A stretch of DNA of 64,000 bases from Fulvia fulva. Lineage: Eukaryota > Ascomycota > Dothideomycetes > Mycosphaerellales > Mycosphaerellaceae. Shown here piece after piece: positions 18,148 through 60,209 of the stretch. Under the pieces are notes generated by a model that made no database searches, was not told the origin of the DNA, and was given only the letters and a program-made list of their open reading frames with translations. Numbering within the stretch: the first letter of the stretch is position 1; each line of letters opens with the position of its first letter. Location of the stretch: NCBI RefSeq assembly GCF_020509005.1, contig NC_063012.1:9486001-9550000 (forward strand). Reading direction: 5' to 3'. Both the position numbers and the translations under genes were made by a program.

Positions 18148-19544
18148 TCATCCCCGAAGATCTGGGAAACGCATCAACAGCTTGGCACTTGGAGTCTCTG
18201 GCTGCATTTGCGCCTCACTCTTCCTCTTCCGGCCAGTGGTTCCAGCAGTAGCCACATCAGAACGCGCACCACTTCCAAGGCCAAACCCGTCAAATAGCCC
18301 GCGCACGTCGCTTGTGAAGGACTGGTCGAGGGCTGGCACCATCGCGAGATCTTTGTTGCGATCGGACCATTCAACCAAGGCTCCATCCTCCTCCTCCTCC
18401 CCGTCCTCCTCCTCTTCTTCATCGTCATCTTCGTCCTCGTGTTCCTCAGCTAAATCACCATCTTTCGCGTGCTCAATGATGATGTTTTCTTCCACCATCG
18501 CAAGACCTCCAATACGGCCCGACCAGTCAGCCAAGCCTCCGTCCTCGTCGTTCTCCTCGTCGTCGTCGTCCTCTTCTTCCTCCTCTTCGTCTTCGTCTCC
18601 ATCCTCGCCTCCGTCAGCCGATTCCTCATCGTCTACCTCTTCTTCGATCTCCATGGCGTTCACATCGCCTCCGACAGCCTCCAATTCCTTGTAAAAGGAC
18701 TTCACGCCGTCGAGCCAAGAGCGCGCGTATTTGCCCTGAACATCGCCCACGGAGCACGAGTTGCAGATCGACCGATAGCTTCGAGAGATGGCATGGATGT
18801 AGTCGGTGATATCCCAGGGTCCTAAACAGATATGCTGATGTGATTTACACACGACGCAGTAAAGAATAGTGTCCGCTGATACGACTTTGTCCACGGAATG
18901 CTTGAAGTTCACATGGTAGTCCCACGACAGTGTGCAAAGCTTTGTTGTGATCAAGTATTGAGGTTCCAAGCCTTTCCAATAACGCTTGCTGTTCTGCAGA
19001 AAAGTCAATGTCAGTGACACTCTTTTGATAGATGGCCGCTCGGGCATGATTCGAGGTAAGCCTGGGGTATACGTACCAGTATGAAGAGCTCATGTGGGAA
19101 GCGTGAAAGAGGAAACTCTTCCAAGTAGCTGCCATCGTTCATCACAGTCAAGGTGAGATCGGGTGCGAGGCGGATGATCTTTTTCACAGCGCGCGTCTGA
19201 TCGTCTCACTTCTCGTGTCCTCCTCCACCGCTGCTGGCTACAACCGGTCGAGTGACCTGCTCTTTGAAATCCGCGCCACCTGATTGCTCGTCGTGTCTGA
19301 CCTTTTGGTGGACATCAACTTCATCTCTGTGGTCGAAGGAGCTGGTGGATCTTCGGCATGGTTCTGGCTGTTCGATCTCTTCAAAGTACGTGATGTGTAC
19401 TGGCGATACAGGGGTGTCGTCTGCGTCGCTCTCATCATCGCTAGTATCATCGCTGCTGTATGAGGTTGTAGGCTTGCTGGTTTGCTTGCCTCGAGGTGGC
19501 GAACCACGATTGGTGGTGGGGGGAGAGGTAGTGCTGGCGGACAT
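18148..19544 (-). CDS. Acidic-repeat protein with CxxC...CxxC pair, function unknown
   Basis: Proposed three exons (19544-19210, 19128-19077, 18993-18148) encode 410 residues. The first intron begins with GTGAGA, which overlaps the apparent in-frame stop TGA at 19206. Removing it joins a Ser/Asp-rich N-terminus to YLEEFPLSRFPHELFIL. The second intron starts GTACGT and ends CTGCAG. Exon 3 has a folded section containing C175xxC178 and C206xxC209, likely a zinc site, then long Asp/Glu runs separating two copies of a motif (GGLADWSGRIGGLAMV and GALVEWSDRNKDLAMV). The tail is basic (TGRKRKSEAQ). If intron 1 is not spliced, the part after it could be a separate gene starting near 19150. A histone- or nucleic-acid-related acidic protein is possible, but no family is recognised. 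Confidence 0.5.
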
Positions 19545-20741
19545 GACGAGAAACGGCGACAAGAGTTCGAACAGTCGTGGTGAGTGATGACAGCAAGTCG
19601 TACGTCGGATGTATGTTTGAATTGTTGGTCGAAGTTCTGATGTGATGTGAGTATCTAGCGTGGAGTATTGAGGATTGTGTTTACGCGAAAGAGAAGCGCG
19701 TTTCGGATGTGGTTGAAATCGAGGTTCCCGAATGAATGCGAGCTGTCTCGCGCAATTGGCGTTGTCTTTACAGGACCCACATTCACGAAGTGAACAAAAG
19801 CTGATACATTTGTGAGTCAAGTGTGGGCTGAAGTAAGTTCAAGGTGAGGGGACTCGTCGCGAGAAACATTGGCGTTCACATGTGCCTGGACCCTGAATTC
19901 ACGCTTGCGCAATATTCCCATGGGCTCTTGACAAAAAAAAGGTCGCTGTGGTCTAAATGGCGAGAATGATTAGAGCCTGCACAAAACGCTCCGGGCACCC
20001 CAGGCCGAAGCAGTTTGTAGAGAGAGACGCGTCGTGTAACGCTTCCGCTTCTACATCCGTAGCAATCACTACGCTGCGAGAGCGCTGTCGTAGATACCTA
20101 AGGAGGTGACTCTGTAGTTGTACAAGCGGCCACCTCTTTGGTCAGGAGCTGTCGTCCCACAGCAGGCGGATGCCCCCATCGATATGCTAAATGACAATTA
20201 GACACTAATCTAGAATCGCGCACCACAGCCAAACTCGAGGATCTAACTGATAACCATAAGCACAGTCAAGCTGATGGACTTCTTCTTCGCTCGTCCAAGA
20301 CGGGAGTCTACTGGAAGTGTATCTATACAAGCCTGGCACTGACGAAATACAGTGGTCGACTAATACGATAACATCGAGAGTGTCAAACGTCTGAAATTAC
20401 CATTTCACCAGTGATGCTGAAGTGTTTATCGCAAGACAGCGCGCAAAGCGCGTCGCTCCGACCCACCTTCTCAGACATGAGCCGAGATGCATAGCACAGG
20501 CCGCAACGCAGAAGCTTGCTAAACATTGCAGAGAAGATCATGACTGCTGCCTGTAGCTTTCAAACAGTCCCAGATAACTTGTACTTAGCTGAAATGTCGT
20601 TTTACAGCATTACTATCACGATACAAAGGACTATATGACCGCGTTAACATACACTGGGCACTATCAAACATAAAATCATCACAACACTCCTACACAAACA
20701 ATGATGCCACTCCTCCAGATGGGTGTACCCTGCTTCCCTTA
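19545..20741. other. Intergenic, about 1.2 kb
   Basis: No coding signal beyond an in-frame upstream extension of the acidic gene's first exon to 19820, which is Cys-rich and probably leader. The part from 20000 to 20690 is stop-rich and slightly AT-richer than its surroundings. No repeats or tRNA seen. The last 50 bases are the 3' region of the giant gene. Confidence 0.5.
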
Positions 20742-23700
20742 CTAACCTCTGGCTCTACCCCTGCCCCTCGACTCGCCTCCTCCACCTTGATGTCTTGGAC
20801 CTCGCTGCCCGCGACCATTGCCGCCTCCTCGTCCGTTATTATTCGCACCTCGTCCCCGATTCCGCGGTCCCCCTCGACTGTGCGATCCCCCTCGATTATG
20901 CGATCCTCCTGGATTCTGCGATCCTCCTCGATTTTGCGATCCTCCACGTGTGCTATTACGCGAGTCGCCTCGACCTCGACCTCCATCAGACCTCCCTCCT
21001 GGCGCCGGGTCGTCCGGAGCATTTGCAAACCTCGAATTGAAGATACCACCAGAGGATCCTGCGGCAGTCGCAGCTGGTTCTGGTCTGTGGCCTTGATCGG
21101 CTTGACTTTGCGTAGAGGTATCGTCGGACTCACGCAGTACCCATCTTCCTTGCTCTGTTTTAGCCATGACTTGCACCTGCCGCCAGAACTCGTCATGTCC
21201 GGCATCGTTTCCCCATCTCTTCTCAAACTTCGCCTTGAATTCGGCAAGAGATGGTCTCTTCGCGAGCTCAGCGCGAAGCTCATCCGTGGTTGGAAAACTG
21301 CTAGGCTGAGTGGTCGATGCGGTCGACTTGGTACTTTCAGAGGAGCCCTTTGTCGATTTGGCCTTCGTAGTTTCCAACGGAGGGATGCTTGGCTCAGATT
21401 GAGACGATCCTTCCGATGGCCTCTTGCTCGAAGTAGCTGCTGTAGGTGGGTTGACCGGCTTCTCTTGTTGTTTCTTGTCTTCCGGCGGCGGATCTTGCTT
21501 GGATTGAGTAGCATGAGGCAGGGTTTTCTGATGACCTGCGGCTGCCTCTCGCAGTTTCCAACGGATGATGGACTGATATCTTTTGGCCCTCTTCTTCCCT
21601 GCCTTGGGTCCCTCGTCTTCTCTGACCTTCTCTTCCTCGGCCATGGTGTGGACTCTCTTCCAGAATTGATACTCTCCATTGTCATCAGCCCATCTACTGC
21701 TGAAGTGGGCCCTTAGTTCGGTATCTAAGGGGTTTGTCCTGAGCACTGCGATGATCTCGTCATCCGTCGGGGCGCCGGCGGGAGGCTTTGTTTGAGGGGC
21801 TCTTTGTGGACCTCCGACAACGCCGTCAGATGCTTGGTCGGTCCCTATACTCGTCGGAGTGGTAACGACTGGCTGAAGGGATCCTTTCAGCGGAGCTTCC
21901 TCTGCCGGCGCAGTAGAAGTGGACGAGGCCGTCTCCACCGCTGGAGCCCATATGGATGAATCCATGCCAGGTTTGACTACGTCAGACGAAGGTGGCTCGG
22001 TCTGCGCTCCGTTTGTAGCCTGACTACTGGCAGCAGGCGTTGGCTGTGGCGCAGCTTCCGAAGCTGGTAGCGCAGTTGGCTCTTCCTTTAGCTGGAACTT
22101 GGATCCGCTGATTTGTTTCGAGACGAGCCTACACATTTCCCAGAACGAGCTTCTGCCCTTAATGTTGCCCCATCGGTTCTCAAATCGTTCGCTTAATACC
22201 CCTATGTCCCCATTCTCTGCAATTGCAGCTCGAACCTCGTCGATTGTGGGAAAGTTGGGGGCCTCTAGGTCTTCAAGCAGTATAAGGTCACCCTTGATAT
22301 GCCTCGCCAGTAGCGATGGCGAGGCATTGTCAGGACGGGAAGCCTCTAAACTCTCTTTTCTGGATGCAGAGTCTTTCTGCAAGTCCTCCGCCTTTGATGC
22401 TGTCAACATAAGCTCTGCTTCTGGCGAAGAGCTGGGAGCCGAAGCGTCTTGCTTTGCATCTTCGCTGGCTACTGTTGAGCTGGTAGTCTTTAGGTCGTCC
22501 TTGTTTCGATCATCTGAAGGCGTGGTGTCATTGCCGAGCGTGGCTTGATTGTCAGCTTCACTTTGGTCGACAATGGTAGATACTTCTCTTGCGGTCGTCC
22601 CTGGTTTGACAGAAGTACTCAAGGTGACGTTCGGGACTGTAGGGGAGGTTTGGTCGTTAGCAGGAGGCAGGTTTGGGTTGCCTTCCTCAACGAGTGGTTC
22701 CGTCGAGCTCGTAGTGATTTGCGCAGATGTTTGTGTCTGAGGTATTGACTCACTCGAAGCAGGAGCATCATTCTGTGCAGCTATGGGTGAAGCTGTCGCG
22801 AGCACAGCAGGCTTCGATCCGGTATCATCATTCAAGATTAGTCTGTCTCCGGACACTGTGCCCATCTCAAGGATTCGCAGAACGAAGTCGCTTTCACTTG
22901 ACCACCTGTGGCTGAAGCGCTCACGCAATGAAGCGATCAAGTCATTCTCGTGGACTGCTTCACATATCTCCTCGTCGGTGATAGGGTCAAGAACGTCAAT
23001 GACAGAGCTAGAGCGCTCTGAGTCTTCTCCAGGGGTCTCGCTGGGCCCGTCTCGGACCGGTGACGCGGGAGGAGTCGAAATCAAGTCAGAACCATCGCGA
23101 AGGATGAAGTTATCACCTTGCTCAAAGGCTACCTCCCTGACCTTTTTGAAGAATGGTATGAGGTTCTCATTGCCATAGCATAGATAGATATCAATGATGT
23201 TACGGCCTTTTGGATTCCTTCGGATATGAGCTCGAATCTCTTCGTAAGATGGGAGCTTGTTGACCAGTTGTTTCCTCGGGACCATATGCGCGGTAAAACG
23301 TTGCACGTTACGTTGGGGCTCCTGCTCCTGAGTAGCTGCGAGATTTGAGGACAGGCTATTGGCAGCTCCAGTGGCGCCGCCATGCCCAGAGGCGGGCTGC
23401 AGACTGCCTTGTGACTGGGCAGGTTGACTGGCTTGGTCGCGATTCTCCCATGGCCGGTGCGGTTGAACGTTCGGATTTTCACTTGGCCTGGTGGTTGGGC
23501 CAGGTAGATAACTTGCAGCTGGAGGATGCATCATACCAGGTGTTGTGGGAGTATTGACGGCTCCTGACGAAGGGCCCGCAGGTTTGTAGGATGCCTTGCC
23601 ATACTCTTGAGCTGTAGTTCTAGGCTTCGAGAAATCCGTTGGGCGTTCAGACGTGCCCAAATTTCCCCTAGGAGTGAACGTATTCTTTAACGACCGGACG

Positions 23701-26700
23701 CGTTTGAGATCTTCGCTGGCTCTGCGACCTTGTGGAGTCGTGAGGCCGCTAGGACTTTGCTTCTCTAGTGGACTGCCACTGTCCGAAGTCCCTGTGACGG
23801 CTCCTCGATGCTTGCCACTGCTTTTAGGGTCCTTCGGGCCAGTCGGAACATTTGGCGGAAGATTTGTTGTAGCATTAGGTCGAGGCTCTGTCGCCCAGCG
23901 CGAGTCGTATATGTCTTCCGATGGTCTGGCAGTAGCGCTGCCACTGGTGACAGTTTCATCGACCGCTGGCTGGGTGCTTCTTGCCGCAAGTGGCGCTATA
24001 GAAGGCGTAGAAAGCTCACCAGAGCTCTCGTCCTCCAGATCCTGCGCAGCTGGCAGAAGTTGTGTCGTGATGTCCATGGCAGGCGAAGCCAAAGTTGGCG
24101 CCGAAGCGGCGACAGTCTGTTGAGAATCCCCAGTCGCACCTGAAATCGAAGTTTGCGCAGAATTGACTACCTGTGCCGTGGTGGTTGTGTCCTGCTGCCC
24201 TCCGCCACTCTTATCCAACTGTTCTTGGGTAGGTGTATAATTATGGGTCTTCTCCCACTGCGACAAAACACCTCGCAAGTAGTTTTCTCGACCCGCTGGT
24301 GTCATGCTTGCGTAGCGTTCTCCTGAATTATACATTGCCTCCCATTCCTGGCTTAGGTCAGGAACAACCATGGGTGGCAATGGGGTTGTCACTCTACTCG
24401 TTGCTCCAGAAGGGGTAAAGCTTGGCGCAGTGCCACTCAGTGCAGAGGAAGGTCCCGAACTCAAGCCGTGGCCACCTTGTCCATAAGTGTTCAATTGCAA
24501 AGAGCCCTTCGACGGCGGTTCCTCCGTTTTAGCCTCTATGAAAGGGTCCTCATTGTCGTCGTCTTCGTTGTCAGCCTCATCGATGTCGTCCTCTTCGCCG
24601 CGGGCCATTCTGTCTTCCCATCTGCGAATTTCATCAAGAGCTCTTCCTTGATTGGCACGATCTCGTCTCAGAAAGACGATGTCATACTGTGCTTGTCTGC
24701 GCGCCTCATCCTCTTGTGTGGATTGCGGCCAGGGGAAGAAGCCCTCTGAGGTCTGATCACCAGGGCCAACAATGCTGAACAAGTAGTAAAGACCATCACG
24801 AGTGATTTGTTGATCCTGGTACAGCTTCATAAGCTCCTGCTCGTGGATGGTCAGCGCCTGGCTTTCGGGCACCGGGCATTTTTCAACCGTGTGTGGTGCT
24901 ACAGATCTGTCGGTATCCCCGCATCTGGGGCAGGGGTATTGTCGCCAGTGGTCCCTGAATGTACCGTTGATCCACCGGCATCGAGAGTGAAGAGGTTGCC
25001 ATGTGATGTCTGGGTGCCGTTCTCTCCACGTCTCATTGGTAATGTGCCATTTCTCGTGTCTGCCCAGCGGGCGTGAGATGTCGTCGTCGCGTCCCCATTG
25101 ATCGGAGCGAAAGTCGGCTGGCTTTTCCCACTGGGTGTGGCCAGTGGTCTCGTGAAAGGACGTCTTCACCGGGGCCCCATCACGCGTAGGGCGAAGAGGG
25201 CAAACGAACCAACGTCGCACCCGTGGTGGCTCTTCAAGCTTTCGCTGTGGGTCATGATCGTTGTGGTCATCTCCTCCCTCCCGGTCCTGCTCAAACTTGT
25301 CAGGCGAGAACCACTGCCGCCTGCCGCTCGTCTGCACGTAGTACATTCGCCCTGCAAACGGATCCCACCTTCGAAACCAAGTACACTCCGGCTGCACAAG
25401 TCTCTTGTCGAGTCTCGCATCATAAGTGTTTGCGTTTGACCGCTGGCTCTGGGGAGTATTCTCCTTCGACATGTGAAATACAGTACTAGCGGGACTCGCG
25501 CTCTTGGCATCGGTCTCGTTGTCTTCAGACTGTGCAGTGGGTGACTTCACGTCGACAGACAACTGTTCATCGTTCTGCTTGGGCCCTTCCTCTGCTGCTA
25601 TTGCTGCGACCGGGGTGGCTGCCGGGGCGTTGTCTCCAGCAATAACCTCATCAGCAGCATTCATCCACTGGCGGAGAGTGTCTGCAGCCTCCTGGACCGT
25701 AGATCCCTGCCACCAAGCTGGGTCAACCATCAACAGATAGCGCACCGCCTGCGGGAGGTGATGATCTCCGAACAAGACCGATGGGCCGCTCGTGCTGGTC
25801 TGGTCACTATGTGCAGCATAGAGAGCTTTTGCCCGATCGTTGATCAGATGAGCGATATCTGGATGATCCATAGATCTGAATAAGTCTCCTTCGGCAAAGT
25901 TTTGTTCGCGGGGGGACTCATGCCGCGAGCGGATGTACTCAACAGCTTCTTGAGCGACTTCGTAGATGCGGGCGACAGCAGGCGAGGGACTGGCTGGGTC
26001 TGAAAGCGGCGCGTTTGGCACAACGCGAAGTCGATCTACATTTCGTGGCACACCGTTCTCATGAAAGCCATGTGGCCGTTCGAGGCTGAGATCGTGCTCG
26101 TCTACGCGCTCCAATGGAATACTGGCGTCATTATCCATCAGCCTGAGGAGGTCTTGCTGCACCTCGGAAGCCGTGAAGTGCGGTATTGCTTGTGGAAGCA
26201 GTTGGAATCTGCTTCGCAGCGCTGTGACCAGTTCGTTGATGCTAAAGACTCCGTCCCTGAACAATGGCGCCTGAAGCACAGGGCGTAGCTCGCTGTCCAA
26301 CAGATCTAGGAGCTCGAGCGGGTCGTTCTGCTGCGGTTCGCCGCCAAAGGGTGCAGTCTCCGCGGCAATTAGGGCATCACTCGCGGCTTCTTGGGTACCT
26401 GCTGCTGGTGTTGAATCTTCGCTCGAAGTCTGCTCCTCCGACTTCTGGTTGTTCTCAGTCTTAACGGAGTCGTCCAAGAGAGTCGAGTCTTCCTTGAACT
26501 CCTGATCACCAGTCTCGCTCGTGGGAGGCGCGCCATCTGCAGTTCCTGCTCGCTGAGATGATGAGCCTCCTCGACCCTGCCTGTGTCTAGCCTTGGAGTC
26601 GTTGTCGTCGTTTTTGTCTTCGTCCTCTTTGGGCTTCTGATCCTTGGCTTTCTTGTCTCCAGGCTTAGAACCAGAACCGTCACCCCCAGCCCGAGAATCT

Positions 26701-29700
26701 TCATCTTCCGAAGACTGCCAACTATCATCAGGACTGCCAGGACTTGGGCGCCTTCGTACAAAATCCACTTTGCCTTTTGCCTTTGACTCGGGGTCTGGGA
26801 ATATCACAAGCTCTTGATTTTGCGACAGCCACTCCAATATCACACGGAGTCTATCATCGCTTGTAGCGAGCGATTCGAAAACTTCAGCCTCGCTAGGGTT
26901 CGTCCAATTGAGCAGAGAACTAGATTGGAGCCTCGTCTCCCATCCTCCCTTTTCTGTCTTTGGAAGGATGTAGAGCAGCGTCCTTAGGGTATTGAAATCA
27001 GCACCCCTCAGTTCTCTGAAACCCGGTCTGTTCAATATTTCCGCCAAGGCGACTCGTAGGTCATGGAGCAGTTCTCCATCCACGCCTTTGGGAAGACGTC
27101 TTGGTCGCGCATTGGATGGTCGGGATACCGGCGGGGTAGGCGTTGCCGACTGAGACTGAGGTAAGGCTGGCGTGTTCGGTTGCGAAGAATTCCGCCCCTT
27201 TCGATGGCTTTCACACTCCTCCAACTTCTTCTTCTGCGCTTCGAACGCCTTGCTCAGCTTTGCAAGTTCTTTGCGAGCCTCATCGAGATCTTTCGGAGCT
27301 TGCTCGCGTTGCGTCTGAGCGGCAGGATCTCTGACCCGTGGCATTCTCAGCCTAAGCACATTGTTGTTGGCGCGTGACCTTGCTTCGCTTCGACGTCGCT
27401 GCTCTGCTCGACTGATGATGGGCATAGCGTTGTAGTTGTCTTCAAGTACGATTGAAGCATCACTGTCATTGGCGTTCTGCGACCCAAATAGTTCATCAAC
27501 GAGCGCGTCATCCCAAACCTGTCGGGCTTCCGCTTGCTCTTCCACTTGCTCCTTAGCATCCCGCAGCTCCATCTGCAGCTTTTCGTACTGCGATAGAGGA
27601 ACAGTGGCGACATCAACTGGGTTTAACAGGTCGTTCCTGATTCGTGCTTCGAATAGTGAGTTCTCACCCACTAGAGCCTCCTGCTCACGTTCCAGCCTGC
27701 GCATCTCGTTGTGTTTCCTGTCGCACTCGGCTTGCAGCTCTCGATGTATCGCCAGAGGAATGACTCGGTTGTCCTCAGCTTGAGCATTGTTGGCCGTCTC
27801 ATCGCTTCTAAGCTGTCTTCCATGCCTCGCAATCTCAAGCTCGTGTTCAAGCCTTCTGTTCTCATTCTCCAGATGGTTCATCTGACGCCTCTGCTCATCA
27901 AGCTTGGCTTGAGCTTCTTGCTGCATCTGTTGAGCCCAGTCACCGTTGTCGATTTTGGATTTCTTTTGCTTAGGCTTCGACTGATCATCATTGCCTTGGA
28001 CCTCACTTTGCTCCTGCTCGTGCTTTCTACACTTGGCCAGCTCACGATTTACACCTCTGAGCGTGACCTCCAACTCGTGATTCCTTTTTGCACGTCGATA
28101 GATTACCTCCTCCAGGTCTCGTATTTCGGCAGCTGCGAGCTCTGGAAGCCATGTAGACCTTTCTTCCTCCTTCGACCAGCTCGCGAGCCATAGTAATGGA
28201 GTGTTCGCCTTCCACCGCTCCAGCTTATGAGTCTGGTCATCGAGCTGAATGCGCAGTAGGTCTCTGTCGGATGCGAGCTTCTCGTTCTCCTCTTCGAGCT
28301 GGTGAAGCTGACTCTGGAGCGCATCATACTCAGCTTTCAATGGATTTCCCCCTTTTTCGGGCTCGGCTTGCTGCTTCTTGTGCTGCTCACATACATCGAG
28401 CTTGTGCTTTACCTCCCCCAGCTCTTTACTCAGAACTTCCGCCTCGCCCTTCAACTTCTTAACCTCCTTCTCCCGCTCATCGAAACCATTCTTGAGCTTG
28501 TCGAACTCTCCCTTGGAAGGACCGTCTCCACTCGCAGGACCATTCTGCGACTGCTTCCCCGCCTCGCATTCAGCCAGCTTGCGGGACGTATCCTCGAGCT
28601 CATTCTTCAGCGCATCATAGTCATGCTGAAGCTTTCTCTTGTCAGCCTCTGATTGCTCGTTGGCATCCTTAAGGTCCTTATCGCCACTTCGTGGTCCACG
28701 CTGGAGCCCTCTATGCTCCTGACACTCCTTGAGCTCCTGCTTCAATGCTTTGACCTGATTCTGCAACTCCTTGTTGTATTGCTTGAGCCGATCTCTATCG
28801 TTGACGTTCTTCGACTGCTCAGTTGCCGCTGCTTCGGGGTCGGGCTTGTCTTTGGCGTCTTGGGCTCCGCCGAAGAAGGATGGTCTTTTCTTCTGCTGGA
28901 GGTTGTCCTTGTCGTTTGGCTTTTCATGGTCTGCGTCTGGATCGTTACCCTGGGAATCCTCATTGTCCTGAGTCTTGAGGTCCCGAAGTCGAATCAGTAT
29001 TTCGTCTCTCTCTTGCCGCACGAGGTCGTAGTTCCTCTGGAGCTCATCGTAGTCCTCCTGAGTAACTCGCTCGCCATCAGCATTGACCAGTCGCCTCTGA
29101 GCCGCTGGTCCAGCTGCTATGTTGCCTGTCTTCAGCATGTCGTCGACCTCGTCATCGAGTCTCTTGATGGCCTCGGCTTGTTCCTCCACTTTCGCTTTGA
29201 GGTGTTTGATGGTGTCGGCCTGCTCTTGATTCTCATCGACAAGTCCGTCAATCCGTGTGTTGAGTCCCACGATCTGCTCGTCTCGGTCTTGGACTTGGTC
29301 GTTCAATATCTTGTTCTGTGACCGCAGGTTTTCGACTTCATCATCGTTCCCAGCCTCTGAACCACCACCACCACCACCACCACCACCTCCCGGGCCGCCT
29401 TGACCTCCTCCGTCGCCGCCACCGGCAACTGGAGGTTGCTGACCCTGATGCAGTGCCGGCCAAATCCATTGCAAGACCGCCTGCGTTATAGTCCACGCGC
29501 CGATCAAAGCAAGACAACACTCAGCAAACCAGAAGAGCTTCTCGCCCCAACCGAAGCCACTCCAAACGTCCTTCAAGACATCATCCGAACCTGCATACAC
29601 ATAACCTTGACTCCAACTCTCATTCCCACTGCTCGCCGTAACAGTAACAGTGGCCGTCTCCCTTCTCACGACCGTCGCCGTCTCGGTCCTGACAAGTGGG

Positions 29701-29852
29701 ACGGGGTAAGAGTACGGAACCGGGATTGAATCATGGATGATGATCTCTCTGGTGTATGTCGGTTCCACCTCATATCGCGTAGTGTCCCATGGGACATGTC
29801 CTTCCCAGTACGCACCTGACAAGAGCCAGATTGCTGCTACTAGGAGCGCCAT
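20742..29852 (-). CDS. Giant 3,036-residue coiled-coil, WW-like, repeat-module and RG-rich protein
   Basis: A single uninterrupted frame of 9.1 kb from the ATG at 29852. In order: a hydrophobic N-terminus (residues 2-16, signal or anchor), a Thr/Val-rich stretch, a second membrane helix (about 105-131), a Gly-rich linker (143-164), and a long charged coiled coil broken by disordered linkers (about 170-950). Next are helical segments from about 960 to 1450, and two WW-like segments (about 1488-1525, RRWDPFAGRMYYVQTSGRRQW; about 1546-1585, TSFHETTGHTQWEKP). A possible zinc site follows (CPRCGDTD, about 1640), then low-complexity Ser/Thr/Pro DNA. Five copies of a roughly 48-residue module occupy 2200-2900, and the RG/SRGG-rich tail runs from about 2960. 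RG tails and WW folds suggest RNA or proline-rich partners; the N-terminus suggests an ER or nuclear-envelope tether. I recognise no family. Introns hidden in frame cannot be excluded. Confidence 0.8.
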   Translation of the reverse strand: MALLVAAIWLLSGAYWEGHVPWDTTRYEVEPTYTREIIIHDSIPVPYSYPVPLVRTETATVVRRETATVTVTASSGNESWSQGYVYAGSDDVLKDVWSGFGWGEKLFWFAECCLALIGAWTITQAVLQWIWPALHQGQQPPVAGGGDGGGQGGPGGGGGGGGGGSEAGNDDEVENLRSQNKILNDQVQDRDEQIVGLNTRIDGLVDENQEQADTIKHLKAKVEEQAEAIKRLDDEVDDMLKTGNIAAGPAAQRRLVNADGERVTQEDYDELQRNYDLVRQERDEILIRLRDLKTQDNEDSQGNDPDADHEKPNDKDNLQQKKRPSFFGGAQDAKDKPDPEAAATEQSKNVNDRDRLKQYNKELQNQVKALKQELKECQEHRGLQRGPRSGDKDLKDANEQSEADKRKLQHDYDALKNELEDTSRKLAECEAGKQSQNGPASGDGPSKGEFDKLKNGFDEREKEVKKLKGEAEVLSKELGEVKHKLDVCEQHKKQQAEPEKGGNPLKAEYDALQSQLHQLEEENEKLASDRDLLRIQLDDQTHKLERWKANTPLLWLASWSKEEERSTWLPELAAAEIRDLEEVIYRRAKRNHELEVTLRGVNRELAKCRKHEQEQSEVQGNDDQSKPKQKKSKIDNGDWAQQMQQEAQAKLDEQRRQMNHLENENRRLEHELEIARHGRQLRSDETANNAQAEDNRVIPLAIHRELQAECDRKHNEMRRLEREQEALVGENSLFEARIRNDLLNPVDVATVPLSQYEKLQMELRDAKEQVEEQAEARQVWDDALVDELFGSQNANDSDASIVLEDNYNAMPIISRAEQRRRSEARSRANNNVLRLRMPRVRDPAAQTQREQAPKDLDEARKELAKLSKAFEAQKKKLEECESHRKGRNSSQPNTPALPQSQSATPTPPVSRPSNARPRRLPKGVDGELLHDLRVALAEILNRPGFRELRGADFNTLRTLLYILPKTEKGGWETRLQSSSLLNWTNPSEAEVFESLATSDDRLRVILEWLSQNQELVIFPDPESKAKGKVDFVRRRPSPGSPDDSWQSSEDEDSRAGGDGSGSKPGDKKAKDQKPKEDEDKNDDNDSKARHRQGRGGSSSQRAGTADGAPPTSETGDQEFKEDSTLLDDSVKTENNQKSEEQTSSEDSTPAAGTQEAASDALIAAETAPFGGEPQQNDPLELLDLLDSELRPVLQAPLFRDGVFSINELVTALRSRFQLLPQAIPHFTASEVQQDLLRLMDNDASIPLERVDEHDLSLERPHGFHENGVPRNVDRLRVVPNAPLSDPASPSPAVARIYEVAQEAVEYIRSRHESPREQNFAEGDLFRSMDHPDIAHLINDRAKALYAAHSDQTSTSGPSVLFGDHHLPQAVRYLLMVDPAWWQGSTVQEAADTLRQWMNAADEVIAGDNAPAATPVAAIAAEEGPKQNDEQLSVDVKSPTAQSEDNETDAKSASPASTVFHMSKENTPQSQRSNANTYDARLDKRLVQPECTWFRRWDPFAGRMYYVQTSGRRQWFSPDKFEQDREGGDDHNDHDPQRKLEEPPRVRRWFVCPLRPTRDGAPVKTSFHETTGHTQWEKPADFRSDQWGRDDDISRPLGRHEKWHITNETWRERHPDITWQPLHSRCRWINGTFRDHWRQYPCPRCGDTDRSVAPHTVEKCPVPESQALTIHEQELMKLYQDQQITRDGLYYLFSIVGPGDQTSEGFFPWPQSTQEDEARRQAQYDIVFLRRDRANQGRALDEIRRWEDRMARGEEDDIDEADNEDDDNEDPFIEAKTEEPPSKGSLQLNTYGQGGHGLSSGPSSALSGTAPSFTPSGATSRVTTPLPPMVVPDLSQEWEAMYNSGERYASMTPAGRENYLRGVLSQWEKTHNYTPTQEQLDKSGGGQQDTTTTAQVVNSAQTSISGATGDSQQTVAASAPTLASPAMDITTQLLPAAQDLEDESSGELSTPSIAPLAARSTQPAVDETVTSGSATARPSEDIYDSRWATEPRPNATTNLPPNVPTGPKDPKSSGKHRGAVTGTSDSGSPLEKQSPSGLTTPQGRRASEDLKRVRSLKNTFTPRGNLGTSERPTDFSKPRTTAQEYGKASYKPAGPSSGAVNTPTTPGMMHPPAASYLPGPTTRPSENPNVQPHRPWENRDQASQPAQSQGSLQPASGHGGATGAANSLSSNLAATQEQEPQRNVQRFTAHMVPRKQLVNKLPSYEEIRAHIRRNPKGRNIIDIYLCYGNENLIPFFKKVREVAFEQGDNFILRDGSDLISTPPASPVRDGPSETPGEDSERSSSVIDVLDPITDEEICEAVHENDLIASLRERFSHRWSSESDFVLRILEMGTVSGDRLILNDDTGSKPAVLATASPIAAQNDAPASSESIPQTQTSAQITTSSTEPLVEEGNPNLPPANDQTSPTVPNVTLSTSVKPGTTAREVSTIVDQSEADNQATLGNDTTPSDDRNKDDLKTTSSTVASEDAKQDASAPSSSPEAELMLTASKAEDLQKDSASRKESLEASRPDNASPSLLARHIKGDLILLEDLEAPNFPTIDEVRAAIAENGDIGVLSERFENRWGNIKGRSSFWEMCRLVSKQISGSKFQLKEEPTALPASEAAPQPTPAASSQATNGAQTEPPSSDVVKPGMDSSIWAPAVETASSTSTAPAEEAPLKGSLQPVVTTPTSIGTDQASDGVVGGPQRAPQTKPPAGAPTDDEIIAVLRTNPLDTELRAHFSSRWADDNGEYQFWKRVHTMAEEEKVREDEGPKAGKKRAKRYQSIIRWKLREAAAGHQKTLPHATQSKQDPPPEDKKQQEKPVNPPTAATSSKRPSEGSSQSEPSIPPLETTKAKSTKGSSESTKSTASTTQPSSFPTTDELRAELAKRPSLAEFKAKFEKRWGNDAGHDEFWRQVQVMAKTEQGRWVLRESDDTSTQSQADQGHRPEPAATAAGSSGGIFNSRFANAPDDPAPGGRSDGGRGRGDSRNSTRGGSQNRGGSQNPGGSHNRGGSHSRGGPRNRGRGANNNGRGGGNGRGQRGPRHQGGGGESRGRGRARG
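21150..23260 (-). repeat. Five diverged copies of a novel ~48-residue protein module
   Basis: Within the giant gene, five segments share one pattern: a Pro/Thr-x-D/E-E-I/L/V-R-A opening, about 10 variable residues, L-x-x-x-F-x-x-R-W-(G/A), about 8 residues, then F-W-x-x-V-x-x-M-A. Openings seen are PSYEEIRAHIR (about residue 2200), ITDEEICEAVHEN (2289), PTIDEVRAAIAEN (2534), PTDDEIIAVLRTN (2692) and PTTDELRAELAKR (2853). The last three are closest (FENRWG, FSSRWA, FEKRWG). The second copy lacks the final FW, and the first has CYGNENLIPFFKKV in place of RWG...FW. The predicted fold is two or three helices. Disordered Ser/Thr/Pro linkers of 40-200 residues separate copies. Confidence 0.7.
29366..29395. 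repeat. CCA/CCACC microsatellite encoding poly-Gly
   Basis: A run of CCA/ACC triplets on the plus strand encodes about 10 consecutive glycines in the giant protein (residues about 155-164), between its membrane helix and coiled coil. Length is likely to vary between strains. Confidence 0.8.
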
Positions 29853-30738
29853 GTCGAGTTATCGTTGTTGGATTTTCGGATTTGGTGCTGGTGGTTAGTG
29901 TCTCCAATGATTCTGTGATACGCACCAAGATGTGTAGCAGCGCGGCTCGCGCAATGGGTCCCAGCAAACGCAGGGCAATTGTTATGCTCTTGTGGGAAGG
30001 ATGGGAGATGTTTGCCTGACTTTGTTGGAGGGAACTCGTCGAGTTGCCTTTTCCGGCAGACTTTGCATGCAAAGAATGGGAGCTGACATTGTCGACATGG
30101 CATAATTTGCAGGCGCCAATAGGCTGTGGCGTCGTGCGACAAAGGCTGCAGCTGCAATCAAGCTCTGGGCCATGCTTCTTTGTTCGGCCTGCAATCAGTC
30201 CTTTGTGTGAATGTCCGCATCGTTTCGATGCATTGATGCTCTGCGTTTTGTCAGATGGCATCTGTATGTGTAAGTGTGTAAGATGTAAAGAAATTCCCGG
30301 AAGGGGGCCTGAAGATAGTCAATGTGTTGACATTGGGGGTTTTAGCCATGTACACGTCCCTCATGTACCACCAGGATCCTCCATCGATTGGCTATGCGCA
30401 TCGTGATATATCGTCTCATCGGTATTATCCTCGCCATTGCCCATGTTAATATCGCCATCCACCGCAGTATTCTTTCCGCACGAAGGATTGAGCACGTTGG
30501 TGTAGACAGGTACAGGCGGACTGCTAGGGATGTCTTGGCTGAAGTCCACGGTCTCATCTGACTGCTCAACCTGTTTACGCCGGCAAGGTGCACTGGGGCC
30601 TGCCTCGACACGGGTATCAGCGTAGCCTTGCGGCATGGGTGCATTGGCGACGCTTCGCCGTGGTTCGACATGTGGTGGCGTTGGCAGACCTGGTCCGTGC
30701 AGTCCTGGCCCAGTGAATCCAGTAGCTCCAAACCGTGC
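29853..30738. other. Spacer with a Cys-rich minus-strand fragment
   Basis: Between the giant gene's start and the CANIN-like gene's stop. On the minus strand, an ATG frame from 30261 encodes KRCGHSHKGL and DCSCSLC...CKLC. A second frame just downstream encodes CRQCQLPFFACKVCRK, so two CxxC pairs sit in different frames without a valid intron between them. This could be a small zinc-binding protein with unseen introns, or chance. From 30738 down to 30361 the frame of the CANIN-like gene stays open beyond its stop (see findings). Confidence 0.35.
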
Positions 30739-33117
30739 TTAGCCAAAAGACACCTGCTTCTTGCTTCCAAATACACCCTTCCTATGCTTTGGTCTAGCAC
30801 GTACACTATGCTCGAGCCTTGAAATCAAATGCTCAATGGCAGTCTTTGCCTGCGTCCGGCGTAAATGGGTGGTTCCGGCATCGCGAACTCGGCTGACAAT
30901 GTGCTTCAGCTCACGGCAAATGGCGTCCATCTGTTCGTTGTGGCGCCGTTCGGTCTGCGTGGGCTCAGCGGGCCCATTCCATGGCCCCGTTGATGGCCCT
31001 GGAATGAGGTCTTTGTGATCTGTCCAGCCGCTCGATATCGCAATGTCAAGGACGGCGGTCAATCCAAGCAGCAACCCGAAGTCTGTCTCTTCGTTGATCT
31101 GAAATTCTGGCCAATGTCTGAGGGCATCAATGATAGTTCTCGCCCATTCTTGTCCAGCAGGATCCTTCTTGCTCGTCGTCTTCGAGAAGCACTCTGAGGC
31201 CAGCCGCCTCCGCAGCCTATATGCTCGTGGAGTGGCAGCTGGTAGAGCCACAATCGCTCGACAGCGGAGCTCAAGCGAAAGCTCGCTAGAAGATTTGAGT
31301 GCACTGACAACTTCCTCGATCAGCTTGTCGAAGCCATCTGCGGGCAATGCATCCATCATGTCCTCGATACTTTCTAGAATGGTCAACGACAGGCTTGGGT
31401 CATCCTTGACTTGGTCGTCAATGTTCATAAGCGCGAGGTCGAGCAGAGCTACAGACGTGTCTTGCGGTGGAGCAGCTGTCACAACACTGTCGCATGCTGG
31501 TGCCAAGAACGCTGCAACCCGCACAATATGTCGCAGACCCGGCGGCAATTTTGCACTTGCGACTGCCTCCTTGTAGTTGAACTCGAAGATCGAGCGTGTC
31601 TTGTATAGCGAGTTTATTGAAGCAGACGTTCTCCAAACAGATTCTTGATGAACGCTCGAAGCTCGAATGATCTCGAGGTAAGCTTCACATAGAGTCTCAT
31701 CCGCCTCGTGAAGCAGTTCCTGTGTCATCCAGCGCACAACACTGGCAGGCAGTGGGTAATGTAGAACCAGTTCAGCAGCAAAGCCACTTATGCACGCTTG
31801 GGTGCGCGAGGCTGCGGTTTGGAACAGCTTCTCCCAGGGAGCATGCGAGTGCTCGTCAAGCTCAGGTGACGAGCCACCGCGATCCCAAAGTGGCTTGTCA
31901 TCCAGAAAGAAGCGGTACTTGATTTCATCGTGCAGCGCTTCCGTTCGCTCGAGAGCCATGATCATCCTCTGTTGCTCGTCACTGTCACTTCCTGCCGCCT
32001 CGACCAACGCGCTCCCGTTGATGCCAGCCGCCTGCGCGTTCGCAAGTCGTTCCTCCCGTTTCTTGGCCTCGACGACTGAGCTCTCGAGACTCGCAATCGT
32101 AGCAGATTCCAGCTGATATCTCTCGTTCTGCGCTACCAAGTTCGCCAAGCTGTTTTTGAACACCTTCTTCGGCGGTGATCGAGGTAATGTGTTCGGCGTC
32201 TTTTGCTTCTTATCCTGGTCTGACAGCCTTGTGCTTTTCTTGACTGGCTTGGGCACTGCGAAAGTCGGTGTCGACTTATCGTCCGTGGTTGGAGAAAGTT
32301 TCCTCCTTTTCACAGAGAAGCTAGAAATGTCTGCCAGTCCTTCGCTGCTGCTTCCGCTGTCGTCTGAATCAGAATTTGTGACACCTTTCAAGCCATCCTT
32401 GGTAGATAGCACCCGTTTACTGTGCGAGCTGACGGGCATCGTCGACGCCTGTGATCCGGTCGGAACGCTCGAGAGGGTTGAGAAGGATGAGAATGAGGTT
32501 GCGTTGGTGGCTGACGCTGAAGACTTGGCCATCGATGCTGGAGTCGGTATCGGTGGCGCACACATGCTGCCAGAAGACACTGGTGACTTCGGCTTGGCTG
32601 ACGGGACCTCAACAGCTACCGCATCGCGTCGCTTCGAGGGCATGTCGGATGCCGATCGATGAGGTGAATGGTGTGTAAGCGTCACGTCTACCGCACCGTG
32701 CAGCGGATGAATGACATCCTGCTGAGGCGACTTCCTCGGTGACTGCCGCGCCGGAGGACTCGTGCTGCTATCCTTCAGCTGTTCATCTCGCGCCTGCTGA
32801 GACTCTGACTTCCGCGGTCGTCCTCGTTCCCTCGCAGCAGTGCTGCTTTCGCTGGCTGAGCTCTGTGTCGCAGACCGCGACTTGTGCGGTGACTTCTTAG
32901 GTCGATCTGGCCTCGGTGGTGATTCAACATTGGAATGGTCCGTCTGTGACGGGTGTGCAGGCGATATGCGTCTTTCGGATGGCTGCCGCGAGCTCCGACC
33001 ACTTTGTGAGGATGAGGCCACTACGATCTCTTCGGCCGTGTCGGACGGAGTGTTAAACTTGGTGAAGAAGCTCAAGATGGACCGGTTCTGCTTCGCGCCA
33101 TGTCGTGCGGGTGGCAT
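30739..33117 (-). CDS. CANIN/Nse6-like protein with PIP-like motif and AT-hook
   Basis: 792 residues in one frame from the ATG at 33117; an alternative ATG at 33156 adds 13 residues. The N-terminus has NRSILSFFTKF (residues 11-21), close to the PCNA-interacting IxxFF box though with Asn in place of Gln. It is followed by a basic, Ser/Pro-rich disordered region with an AT-hook-like GRPRK (99-103). The C-terminal half (about 360-700) is all-helical and matches my recollection of the CANIN domain (coiled-coil SMC6 and NSE5 interacting) of SLF2/Nse6-type proteins, with YPLPASVVRWMTQEL as the clearest stretch. Such proteins recruit the SMC5/6 complex to damaged chromatin in the nucleus. The stop TAA at 30739 is followed by about 125 further open codons in the same frame. 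Assignment to CANIN is from memory of the family's look and would need a profile search. Confidence 0.6.
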   Translation of the reverse strand: MPPARHGAKQNRSILSFFTKFNTPSDTAEEIVVASSSQSGRSSRQPSERRISPAHPSQTDHSNVESPPRPDRPKKSPHKSRSATQSSASESSTAARERGRPRKSESQQARDEQLKDSSTSPPARQSPRKSPQQDVIHPLHGAVDVTLTHHSPHRSASDMPSKRRDAVAVEVPSAKPKSPVSSGSMCAPPIPTPASMAKSSASATNATSFSSFSTLSSVPTGSQASTMPVSSHSKRVLSTKDGLKGVTNSDSDDSGSSSEGLADISSFSVKRRKLSPTTDDKSTPTFAVPKPVKKSTRLSDQDKKQKTPNTLPRSPPKKVFKNSLANLVAQNERYQLESATIASLESSVVEAKKREERLANAQAAGINGSALVEAAGSDSDEQQRMIMALERTEALHDEIKYRFFLDDKPLWDRGGSSPELDEHSHAPWEKLFQTAASRTQACISGFAAELVLHYPLPASVVRWMTQELLHEADETLCEAYLEIIRASSVHQESVWRTSASINSLYKTRSIFEFNYKEAVASAKLPPGLRHIVRVAAFLAPACDSVVTAAPPQDTSVALLDLALMNIDDQVKDDPSLSLTILESIEDMMDALPADGFDKLIEEVVSALKSSSELSLELRCRAIVALPAATPRAYRLRRRLASECFSKTTSKKDPAGQEWARTIIDALRHWPEFQINEETDFGLLLGLTAVLDIAISSGWTDHKDLIPGPSTGPWNGPAEPTQTERRHNEQMDAICRELKHIVSRVRDAGTTHLRRTQAKTAIEHLISRLEHSVRARPKHRKGVFGSKKQVSFG

Positions 33118-34235
33118 TGCTCTGAACAATATGTCCTGTCGTTCGTTAGCGAGCATTGAAGTCACGTCAAGTCGCGCTGAGGTACGCGTCGAGATCAATC
33201 AACTTGGCGAGCGGGCGTCGGCGTGTGAGGCGCATAGTTGCGATGGCGACCCACTAATATTTCACTTGCACAAGCAACTTCCATGAACCCTCGACTGAAA
33301 AGCACGTGTGCAACCATCATACATGTAGATCGCACAGTGCCTGCCAGGACTGCTCCAGCTGTCTACACAATGCAAGCCTAATCCTGATGCATAACGGCCG
33401 CGACTGAATGGCATCGATTGCACATGGTGGTGCAGTAGCAACATTGAAGTGCGACCTCTCAAACAATGAAGTCTCAGCTGAGCACAGCCCAGGCGTGCCA
33501 GAGGCAGACTGTTGGCGTAGGAGGGAGGAACAAATGTCATAAACCTCGAAGGTGCGGGCTCGAGCTGCAGCGGATGTCAGCGCTGGGGGATGAGGTGTCA
33601 GGGTGTGCATAAAATCTGCGTCTCTCATCATGGATCTCGTCGGTCTCGTCCGGTGGCTTCCGCAAAACAGTGCGGTCCCCACCGCCGTGCACGGTGCAGT
33701 AGCCCTGATGTTCAGTTTCCGCGTCCGAACGTATGTACGCGCTAAGCACCCACCCCTGTCCGTTATGTAAGATATCCTAGGTACCGTACCGGCGTGCCCT
33801 CTGCCGTCGTCTTCCACGACTGTTGGAAGCGAAAGGCTGGTCGTCTCGCGCTCTGGCATGCTGATGTAACTGCAAACCCCCTGCCCGTCAACGTCTTTAG
33901 GGGCCGGTGTCCGCAGCCTGTCTCTCAAACACCCGGGAACTCTAGCTTCCAGCGATCCCTCGAAGCAACATCCAACACCACACCCTACAAACCACACCCG
34001 CAGACGCCCCTCGCCACGGCTCGCGCCCACCGCACGTTCGTTGCCAACAAACACGTGCAACCACAGCTGCCACTCCAATTGCGCATCTACATCGCATACA
34101 CACCAATGCACACTTCTCTCTTGATGCTGCGCCATACACGATAGCATAGCGGAACGCCGCGGGCTCCCACGCCCTTCCATCGACAGCAGTCTCCTGCCGC
34201 ATGAGACATCCACCACCAACTATTGATCCGTCATC
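33118..34235. other. Divergent promoter region, CANIN-like gene / flippase
   Basis: About 1.1 kb between two divergent starts. The minus strand is open for 300 codons (34219-33317), but the translation is Cys/Arg/Thr-rich without domain character, so it is treated as chance. The 200 bases before 34236 are rich in CCACC/CACA runs, as common in fungal leaders. Confidence 0.55.
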
Positions 34236-37200
34236 ATGGCCACCGTGAGCTTTGGGGCCCAACAGCCGCGCCCTGAGGAGGCAGTGGAGGCAGGCAATGG
34301 CGCAGAACGGACACAACCACTTAATCGTATGCGATGGGCGACGGTGCGCCAGTCTGGCAAGAAGGGTGTGCAGAAACGAAAGTCCATATTCAATCGCCAG
34401 GTGGCACGATTAAGTGGCGTATCCAATAAACGGCAGTCAGCTGGCTCCAACATCAGCGATCTCAAGGCCGATGACATTGCGAACGACAAAGCCGCCCAAG
34501 GTCAGACGCATAGAACGATATACGTCAATCAGCAGCTACCGGACTCTGCGCGAGATGAGGAAGGGAGGCCGTTGCAGAACTTCAAGCGAAACAAAGTCCG
34601 GACGGCAAAGTACACGCCCATCAGTTTCATACCGAAGAACCTGTGGTTCCAGCTACACAACATCGCGAACGTGTACTTTATCTTCATCGTCATCCTGGGT
34701 GTAAGTACCACCTCGCGAATGCCACTCCAAGCTGAGTGTGGATGAGCTGACCAGCTGACAAAACACAGATCTTCTCCATCTTTGGCGTGCAGAATCCCGG
34801 TCTCTCCGCCGTGCCCATCATCGTTATTTTGACCATCACGGCTATAAAGGATGCAATAGAAGATTGGCGTAGGACGGTCCTGGATAACGAGCTGAACAAT
34901 GCGCCGGTACATCGGTTGGTCGGCTGGGAGAATGTCAACGTGTCCGACGAGAAAGTCGGCATTTGGCGTCAGTTCAAAAAGGCAAACACCCGCGCGATCC
35001 TCTTGGTTTGGAAATGGTGGAAGGCCAAACAGGAAGAGAAGGCCGCGAAGAAGGGCAAAGGCCCCAGTGCGAGAGATGCGAATTTGGATGCGAAACTGGA
35101 AGAGCAGAATCGACGCGCGAGCATGGTCACAGCCCGTTTGGACGCAGAGGACTATCCACATGAGAATGATGAGGGCGATGTTGAGATGACACCTGTTCCG
35201 TCTCCCACGCCAGGACAACGGCCACAACATGGTGGTGATGACATGCGGGATCCTGGCCTGCAACGAGACCATTTGACGGTTCCCAAAGAAGATGGTAAAG
35301 TCGAGCAGATTCCTGTCCCCAAGAAATTCTATGGAAGCTTGATCAATCCCAACAGGGAACAGCTTGACAAAGCACGATTCAAGCGGGACTACTGGAAGAA
35401 CGTGCGAGTTGGCGACTTTGTGCGACTCTACAACGACGAGGAAGTGCCCGCGGACATTGTGGTACTTTCGACAAGTGATGCAGACGGTGCTTGCTACATC
35501 GAGACGAAGAACCTGGACGGCGAGACGAATTTGAAAGTTCGGACGGCATTGTACTCGGGAAGGCAGATCAAAAGGGCGCGAGATTGCGAGCAAGCCGACT
35601 TCATCCTGGAAAGTGAGCCACCTCACGCTAATCTCTACGCATACTCCGGAGTGGTGCGCTGGAACCAGTACGATCGAAAACAACCTTCTGCGGAAACAAA
35701 GGAGATGGCTGAACCTGTGGGTATCAACAACCTGCTACTTCGTGGGTGTACAGTTCGCAACACCGAGTGGGTGCTCGGAGTGGTCGCCTTTACTGGAGAG
35801 GACACAAAGATCATGCTCAACTCGGGTATCACGCCTTCGAAACGGCCCAAGATCATGCGTGATCTGAACTGGAATGTGCTCTACAACTTTATCATCCTGT
35901 TTGTCATGTGTCTGGTTGCCGCAATCGTGGAAGGCGTGACCTGGGGCCAAGGAGACAATTCTCTCGACTTCTTCGAATTTGGCAGCTATGGCGGAACACC
36001 CGGCTTGAACGGTTTCATCACATTCTGGGCAGCCATCATTCTGTTCCAGAACTTGGTGCCCATCTCGCTGTACATCTCTCTGGAAATCGTGCGCAGTGTG
36101 CAGGCCTTCTTCATCTTCTCGGATACGTACATGTACTACGAGAAGATTGACTACCCGTGCACGCCAAAATCCTGGAACATCTCGGACGACCTTGGGCAGA
36201 TCGAGTATGTCTTTTCCGACAAGACCGGCACGCTTACGCAGAACGTCATGGAGTTCAAGAAGTGTACAGTTAACGGCCAGCCATATGGTGAAGCTTACAC
36301 TGAGGCTTTGGCTGGCATGCAGAAGCGTATGGGAATCAACGTCGAAGAGGAAGGTGCTCGGGCAAAGGCGCAGATCGCCCAAGACCGTGTCAGTATGCTG
36401 CAAAGGATCCGCAAGATGCACAACAACCCTTACTTGCGGGACGAGGACCTCACGTTCGTTGCACCAAGCTACATCGCAGACCTCGACGGCGACAGTGGTC
36501 CCGTACAGAAGGCTGCGACGGAACAGTTCATGCTCGCTTTGGCTCTCTGCCACAGTGTTATTACGGAAAGGACTCCAGGTGACCCGCCTAGGATCGAGTT
36601 CAAGGCACAAAGTCCCGACGAAGCTGCGCTCGTAGCGACCGCGAGGGATGTCGGCTTCACTGTCATTGGACGTTCGAATGATGGCATCATCGTCAACTAT
36701 CTGGGCGAGGAGCGAGAGTACACCGTACTCAACACTCTCGAGTTCAACTCCACCAGGAAACGAATGAGTTCGATCTTGCGCATGCCCAATGGCAAGATTA
36801 TGCTTTTCTGCAAGGGTGCTGATAGTATCATCTACTCGCGTCTGAAGAAGGGAGAACAAGCTCAACTTCGTGCCTCTACGGCCGAACATCTTGAAATGTT
36901 TGCTCGAGAAGGTCTGCGAACGCTGTGCATTGCGCAGCGTGAGCTCGATGAAGAAGAGTACCAAAGATGGAACGTTGACCACGAATTCGCGGCAGCTTCC
37001 GTCCAAGATCGAGAGGACAAGCTTGAAGAGTGCGCTGACCGCATTGAGCGTGAGCTTACACTGCTCGGAGGCACTGCCATCGAAGACAAACTTCAGGATG
37101 GCGTACCTGACGCAATCGCCCTGCTTGCCCAAGCCGGAATCAAGCTTTGGGTATTGACGGGTGACAAGGTTGAGACTGCCATCAACATTGGCTTCTCTTG

Positions 37201-40852: not shown

Positions 40853-41320
40853 TGTGCCTGTTTGCGTGATATGACTTGGCCGCTGTTGCTCAAGCTCTGG
40901 GAAGAAGAGCAAGCAAAGGATAGATGTATATGTGCAGTTAAATGCGGTGTCTACATAGCCGTGTCAGTCATACCTCGCGCTATGCTGTCTTTGCAGCTAC
41001 AGTCTCCATGTATGCCGCCTGGGATGATGGCGTGTCCGAACAGAACCGAGCCTACAAGCTGCACCAAGGACGAAGGACGAAGGAAGCAGAAGGAACACTC
41101 GACGCCATCTTTCTTGGGCACACCGCACTTGCCGAAGTTGTAGGGCATTGACATGAAGGGCAGAGAAGGAGCGATGTTGGTGATGGAAGACCGCCCAAAG
41201 GGCTCACTAACCATTCAATGACATCAATGAATACTTGATTGATGACATCAGTCGCACCTACGCGCTCTCGCGTCGCCCATCTTCACAACCACTCACCAGA
41301 CATGCCTTATCCATACTACA
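40853..41320. promoter_or_regulatory. Shared divergent promoter, beta-lactamase-fold gene / RAD1
   Basis: 468 bp between two ATGs pointing away from each other. It contains a repeated TGATGACATCA-like pattern near 41215-41250 (CAATGACATCAATG, TTGATGACATCAGTC), which resembles bZIP/ATF sites (TGACATCA). Short frames on either strand are not supported as genes. Confidence 0.4.
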
Positions 41321-59854: not shown

Positions 59855-60209
59855 ATGTCGACTCCGAAGGGCAGGATTCTTCATCCCACTGATGCCTCCG
59901 TTAGCAACGAGAAGATCCAAGCATTGGTGAAGGAAGGCGCGGACAAAGCTCGAGCAGCTGGCTACGAAGTGCCATTGACGTTCGTAGAGCCTGTCGACCT
60001 TTCGGCATCTATGACTGCTCTTAGACAGAGTCTGCAGTCAGGGGATTGGGATGCCTTGATTGTTAGTGGTGCCCTTGGCGTAACCCCAGCTTACACACCA
60101 CAATTCGAGCGGACGATCAACATGCTGCCCCGAAAACAAGAATACTCTTCCAGACGGGCCTGGAGATATCTACGAGACAATCCAGAGAGGTCTTGAGGAG
60201 AAATGGTAG
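59855..60209 (+). pseudogene. Small Rossmann-like protein gene with two frameshifts
   Basis: The frame from the ATG at 59855 encodes KGRILHPTDASVSNEKIQAL, then LQSGDWDALIVSGALGVTP and FERTINM. This looks like a known type of small fungal protein (about 140 residues) of unknown function with a Rossmann-like core. After INM the expected continuation is in the next frame (APKTRILFQT). After that it is in the third frame (GPGDIYETIQRGLEEKW, stop at 60209). Thus two small indels, near 60125 and 60160, break the gene. The apparent frame instead runs to a stop at 60196 with an unrelated end. It lies about 150 bp from the start of the RIP-mutated repeats. Family identity is from memory of its general pattern. 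Confidence 0.55.

Follow-up and report, generated by a model that had tools for sequence, protein, structure and literature searches.

Among the animal coiled-coil membrane proteins of the endoplasmic reticulum (ER), p180/RRBP1 and kinectin hold ribosomes or mRNA at the ER, while WW pairs, CCHC motifs, winged helices and RGG tails occur in RNA-processing or nucleic-acid proteins, FBP21 for example also carrying a zinc finger. In filamentous fungi the leashins, which tether Woronin bodies, are described as proteins of 5,936 to 10,821 residues whose middle is acidic and PELS-rich and whose membrane segment lies within the last 288 residues (PMC2690989, PMC5345055). We analysed a 64,000-nucleotide window (C1:9486001-9550000, from an assembly of 67,169,167 bases in 14 contigs) of the genome of the tomato leaf-mould fungus Fulvia fulva, also known as Cladosporium fulvum, and report on a gene within this window which encodes a protein of 3,036 residues. 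Coordinates are those of the window, and all features of this gene lie on the minus strand. Starting from a single frame, internal repeats, an in-frame RG-rich stretch and a hydrophobic N-terminus, we tentatively propose from the anatomy of the protein that it may be a lineage-restricted, membrane-anchored, dimeric and multivalent ribonucleoprotein (RNP) scaffold, acting as a membrane-to-ribonucleoprotein tether.

A single gene of 9.1 kb

The frame runs from an ATG at 29852-29850 to a TAG at 20744-20742 (20742..29852; 3,036 codons in a single exon), with an in-frame TAA starting 9 nt ahead of the ATG. With stops expected at 3.9 % per codon under a Markov-1 model, an open run of 3,036 codons has a log10 probability of -53. 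Frame 1 of the plus strand over 20742-29852 has many stops. Using codon preference trained on five neighbouring frames and scored in windows of 200 codons, the long frame had the top coding score in 14 of 15 windows; the exception, residues 2801-3000, which contains over half of the RG-rich tail, was undecided. Because the coding signal runs continuously through the frame, the possibility of several genes read as one was dropped, and the 9.1-kb frame is one intact coding gene, in line with the stop-free frame reported by a first-pass annotation of the window. The same annotation considered the single exon unusual. However, the Race 5 genome report gives 5,474 of 14,690 genes (37.3 %) as single-exon, with a mean intron of 80 bp and a mean coding length of 1,284 bp (PMC9453070), so a gene without introns is nothing unusual here and it is length that sets this one apart from others in the genome.

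The existence of the gene is already public and is not new. The protein database contains it as ‘hypothetical protein CLAFUW4_01953 [Fulvia fulva]’ (hereafter P0002), under the UniRef name ‘WW domain-containing protein’, with one member sequence on five contigs. As other F. fulva isolates were annotated partly via lift-over of Race 5 models, according to the report on them (PMC10823647), the five contigs do not represent five independent observations. What we add is a repeat family, a probable correction of the tail, a resemblance to splicing-type WW domains and a set of CxxH sites.

Searching with the whole protein (7,978 candidates sharing most words scored) or with residues 1480-1745 against proteins of ~1,670-5,313 amino acids (143 candidates) recovered only P0002, and residues 905-1745, within a 1,151-residue query against proteins of ~633-2,014 amino acids, gave nothing at E ≤ 1 among the 7,984 best candidates. 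This type of search requires shared five-residue words and is swamped by low-complexity words, so diverged orthologs could escape it, and the queries comprised the whole protein and its middle rather than the N-terminal 900 residues or the modules separately. The absence of an ortholog would then mean that none is close enough for a word-based search, rather than that none exists. Within the F. fulva genome no paralog was found for residues 1-170 (E ≤ 1), residues 171-900 (E ≤ 0.01), residues ~900-1800 (E ≤ 0.01) or modules M3-M5 (E ≤ 10), the first look having passed 1, 7, 1 and 13 candidates respectively; this search did not extend to M1, M2, the tail or most of the linkers. Prokaryotic genome contigs searched with residues 1480-1760 yielded no match, Pfam (whole protein and pieces) and NCBIfam gave nothing above cut-off, and Rfam gave nothing at gathering score over 19000-31000; a bacterial-type promoter scan, which is uninformative for a fungus, was also empty. 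No description was found in the literature by the locus tag CLAFUW4_01953, the tags of other isolates being excluded, or by domain combination, which is not proof of absence. With its intact frame, no domain over cut-off and P0002 as the only match, this is, as far as searched, the one undescribed giant protein that had been suggested.

Repeated modules and the C-terminus

Five modules in the C-terminal third of the protein are diverged copies of one unit of ~60 residues and are similar to one another. The five novel modules of the first-pass annotation are thus present, but as five copies of one module, predicted to be a winged helix. In leave-one-out profile comparisons M1 (residues 2195-2262, 23067..23270) scored 18.5 bits against 3.8 for the best shuffle, M2 (residues 2286-2346, 22815..22997) 25.5 against 5.6, M3 (residues 2529-2594, 22071..22268) 36.3 against 8.5, M4 (residues 2690-2752, 21597..21785) 46.9 against 7.0 and M5 (residues 2850-2914, 21111..21305) 50.8 against 8.9. 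Core residues shared by the five modules have been retained, suggesting selection on the modules.

A winged helix consists of three helices and, after them, a wing of two strands. A structure model of M5 (pLDDT 77.8) has the element order H-H-H-E-E, from which the ~60-residue module is predicted to be a winged helix. Fold matches include CSB, chain R of the yeast Pol II pre-initiation complex, ELL, ELL2 and chromatosome chains, in lists which also contain many unrelated rows such as methyltransferases, bacterial regulators and topoisomerases; a viral fold library searched with M5 gave nothing at E ≤ 0.001. Alignment of the modules with the genome's own TFIIF beta gave an hhalign probability of 0.7 on a scale of 0-100, a weak comparison with which a distant relation would be compatible. 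Searches of the genome for TFIIF alpha and ELL came back empty, but so did their controls, which makes them uninformative. Beyond M5 the frame ends in an RG/RGG-rich tail (residues 2941-3036, 20745..21032) with 14 RG in 96 residues compared with 9 in the other 2,940, which agrees with the RG-rich tail noted earlier.

This tail is missing from P0002. The deposited protein, of 3,046 residues, matches 95 % of the frame at 100 % identity, up to residue 2892, after which it omits 22 nt (window 21176 to 21155, GT...AG), so that M5 is cut, the frame changes and the RG tail is lost. A CAG triplet lies directly before the 22-nt stretch (21155..21176) and again at its end. Against a profile built from M1-M4 M5 scores 50.8 bits when uninterrupted and 37.2 with the gap. 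When the 20 residues past the junction were compared with the ends of M1-M4, the score was reached by 7 of 2,000 shuffles for the uninterrupted version and by 1,255 of 2,000 for the gap version, this being a summed match over pieces picked by eye. Codon preference leaves the frame of the C-terminal tail undecided. Since module conservation favours the uninterrupted frame and the annotation pipeline took introns from 20 bp upward (PMC9453070), the uninterrupted frame is likelier to be correct. The 22-nt ‘intron’ is probably an annotation error and the deposited C-terminus probably wrong, which, whatever the function of the protein, would leave the last part of M5 and the RG tail invisible to anyone searching with the public protein.

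Alternatively the intron could be real and regulated, toggling the C-terminus between the RG tail and a different 154-residue tail, a reading favoured by its presence in the deposited model, by its GT..AG ends and by the unconventional introns of HAC1/hacA, which are about 20 nt long and have both ends in hairpin loops with a CNG|CNG cleavage motif. The predicted folds do not place both ends of the 22-nt stretch in such loops. Of three folds, the two shorter ones place the 5′ end inside a stem next to a 4-nt loop and the 3′ end at the margin of a 7-nt loop, AAAACAG, without CNG|CNG; the longest fold differs from both. A HAC1-type intron was rejected. Given also the damage to the end of M5 and a length near the pipeline minimum and well short of the mean intron, as reported for Race 5 (PMC9453070), we consider a regulated intron very improbable. 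A study of alternative splicing (PMC11694984) contains none of the four intron-length phrases looked for in it.

N-terminus, coiled coil, middle region and neighbouring genes

Hydrophobicity is concentrated at the N-terminus, with all 19-residue windows of hydropathy > 1.2 located within residues 1-131 and no 19-mer > 0.89 past residue 170. Residues 2-14 (29811..29849, hydropathy 2.23) resemble a signal peptide or anchor, whereas residues 106-131 (29460..29537), which hold one Glu and two Gln, form a marginal transmembrane segment with a best 19-mer of 1.57; these two stretches answer to the N-terminal membrane helices claimed earlier. The predicted poly-Gly hinge is present at residues ~143-167 (29352..29426) and includes an (ACC)9 array (29361-29387). 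The following coiled-coil-rich region (residues 170-900, 27153..29345) corresponds to the long coiled coil proposed. A period of 3.46-3.54 was found in 5 of 13 overlapping windows across residues 161-964 and other or weak periods in the remaining 8. The coiled-coil-rich region contains 6 Cys, four of which fall in CxxH motifs at residues 377-380 (28713..28724), 488-491 (28380..28391), 608-611 (28020..28031) and 880-883 (27204..27215). Each of these motifs (27204-28724) is preceded by [KR]xLxx, and they are possible inter-chain metal sites.

Residues 920-1040 (26733..27095) and 1170-1420 (25593..26345) look folded by eye and have no Pfam match. Residues 901-1040 (26733-27155) resemble M5 weakly (E 0.014 among 11 segments), but the five-module profile detects no module there. 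The WW-like folds noted in the first-pass annotation correspond to two stretches, residues 1486-1524 (25281..25397, Pfam WW E 0.0078) and 1543-1584 (25101..25226, E 0.0079), both sub-cut-off. As a pair they reach E 8.3e-5 for WW (PF00397), although at 23.0 bits compared with a curated cut-off of 26.9, and 16.7 bits each alone. The first contains the W...YY...W..P pattern and so resembles a WW domain below the PF00397 cut-off, and the gene is absent among the 12 genome-wide WW matches. The best PDB matches are weak and are WBP4/FBP21 (E 0.052) and PRPF40A (E 0.073) for the first and WBP4/FBP21 (E 0.0088) for the second. A structure prediction of residues 1480-1760 made without relatives had a pLDDT of 34.7 and was left out of the fold searches. 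The CxxC site reported earlier was confirmed and extended to a CCHC-type motif, C-x2-C-x9-H-x4-C (residues 1641-1659, 24876..24932), which has a weak PDB match to a Nanos zinc finger (E 0.65). Its spacing differs from that of the Nanos-like second knuckle, C-x2-C-x7-H-x4-C, which has a first knuckle before it. Residues 1760-2190 consist of 54 % Pro/Gly/Ser/Thr/Gln/Asn, and linker makes up much of the length of the protein.

The upstream neighbour (30739-33198, minus strand, 819 amino acids) has no Pfam match and contains in its N-terminal part the sequence QNRSILSFF, which we take to be PIP-box-like, and on that reading it is perhaps a PCNA-linked repair protein. Beyond it lie a phospholipid-translocating P-type ATPase or flippase (34787-37786, plus), a 423-residue frame which by eye has the look of a serine beta-lactamase-type hydrolase (39641-40912, minus) and an ERCC4-domain nuclease (41321-44152, plus; Pfam E 2.9e-25), presumably Rad1/XPF-like by size. 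These are followed by a protein with WD40 repeats and a C-terminal RING_16 domain (46583-50125, minus), a make-up we assume to be that of SEA/GATOR-type subunits, and by a CorA-like transporter domain fused with ankyrin repeats (51394-54966, minus). An 18-bp tandem array (58813-58873; 3.4 copies, 97 % matches) lies outside the listed frames of at least 250 amino acids, and over 60001-63000 the G+C content falls to 39-46 % compared with ~50-58 % over the rest of 1-60000, perhaps representing RIP-affected repeat DNA.

Possible roles and comparison with known systems

As a tether, the protein would enter a secretory-pathway membrane, the ER or nuclear envelope first, by its N-terminus, with the Gly hinge and coiled coil extending ~2,900 residues into the cytosol. 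The coiled coil would dimerise, its repeated CxxH sites perhaps acting as a lock, and the WW pair would bind proline-rich ligands of RNA-processing type. A multivalent grip on RNA or RNP would come from the CCHC motif, the RGG tail and the five winged-helix-like modules, which are joined by flexible linkers. This layout is suggested because the anchor and the RG stretch lie at opposite ends with hinge, coil and flexible linkers between them. The anatomy therefore suits the membrane-to-RNA or RNP tether put forward in the first-pass annotation, but several points weigh against it. The second of the membrane segments is marginal, the case for RNA binding is built on the RG tail plus weak WW and zinc resemblances, and the net charges of M1-M5 (+1, -10, 0, -5 and +1) are neutral or acidic, so the modules may bind proteins rather than RNA. 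We consider it unlikely that every element of the fullest version holds, in which an ER or nuclear-envelope anchor, a splicing-type WW pair, a CCHC motif, five winged helices of a new family, an RGG tail and [KR]xLxxCxxH metal clasps between two chains would together form a lineage-restricted RNA-processing or RNA-transport scaffold. The protein and literature searches made found no described protein with the order anchor-coil-WW-CCHC-winged-helix-RGG.

The protein might instead be a nuclear-envelope scaffold holding chromatin or the transcription/splicing machinery, with its N-terminus in the nuclear membrane or ER and its winged helices and WW domains engaging nuclear proteins. CSB, the pre-initiation complex chain, ELL/ELL2 and the chromatosome chains among the fold matches point this way, as do splicing factors as best WW matches, but the same lists contain many unrelated rows, the modules are not basic and the comparison with TFIIF beta shows no family tie. 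It might equally be a soluble nuclear or cytosolic RNA-processing scaffold with a short signal-like stretch and a non-anchoring amphipathic helix at its N-terminus. The polar residues of the marginal segment would fit, and WW pairs, CCHC motifs and RGG tails are typical of soluble RNA-processing proteins, although the confinement of hydrophobic windows to the first 131 residues looks like a targeting signal plus anchor. Both readings are unlikely, each being a little over half as likely as the membrane-to-RNP tether.

Somewhat less probable again is a fast-evolving orphan made of disordered linkers around a handful of relic domains, without a role dedicated to RNP or tethering. The linker-rich composition and the lack of a relative outside F. 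fulva in word-based protein searches are consistent with such an origin, but the core residues kept in all five modules suggest selection. The first-pass annotation also raised a large septum/Woronin-type scaffold. For one like leashin, at the septal pore or the Woronin body, a large, repeat-bearing protein with coiled coil and membrane segment in a filamentous ascomycete is what would be expected. We nevertheless regard a leashin-like scaffold as highly doubtful, as length and position of the membrane segment differ from the leashins of the published accounts (PMC2690989, PMC5345055) and no PELS-type repeat array was found at the DNA level, no special protein-level search having been made.

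The likeness to leashin (LAH) lies in the great size, the coiled coil and the membrane segment of a filamentous-fungal scaffold. According to the same accounts, leashin is roughly 2-3.5 times as long as the 3,036 residues here, its membrane segment is C-terminal rather than N-terminal and the PELS-rich middle is its own (PMC2690989, PMC5345055); on length and on the absence of 19-mers of hydropathy > 0.89 after residue 170, leashin identity was rejected. Leashin is further characterised by an extracellular C-terminal domain and by an N-terminal domain that binds the Woronin-body protein WSC. WBP4/FBP21 and PRPF40A share the two WW-like domains, for each of which they head the PDB matches (E 0.0088 to 2.1), but to our knowledge have neither a membrane anchor nor a comparable coiled coil. 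Prp40 itself is another gene, since the genome has its own Prp40-like gene with two WW and FF domains at C1:2.339 Mb. Prp40 identity was rejected, the WW domains here being below cut-off and neither the whole protein nor the five modules having given an FF match (PF01846) up to E 10, although HMMER filters drop most matches above ~0.1. The winged helices of CSB and TFIIF beta share the H-H-H-E-E order of the module model, but here five modules occur in one protein and no sequence relation is shown.

Likened by description only, the anatomy would fit an ER tether of the p180/RRBP1 type, with an N-terminal anchor and long cytosolic coiled coil as in p180/RRBP1 and kinectin, the former acting in the manner proposed here. 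We know of no WW domain, winged-helix repeat, zinc motif or RGG tail in either protein. If the tether reading is true, this gene would encode a fungal equivalent, assembled from other parts, of those animal ER proteins which keep ribosomes and mRNA at membranes, and would show that a large scaffold of many domains can be almost confined to a single fungal lineage.
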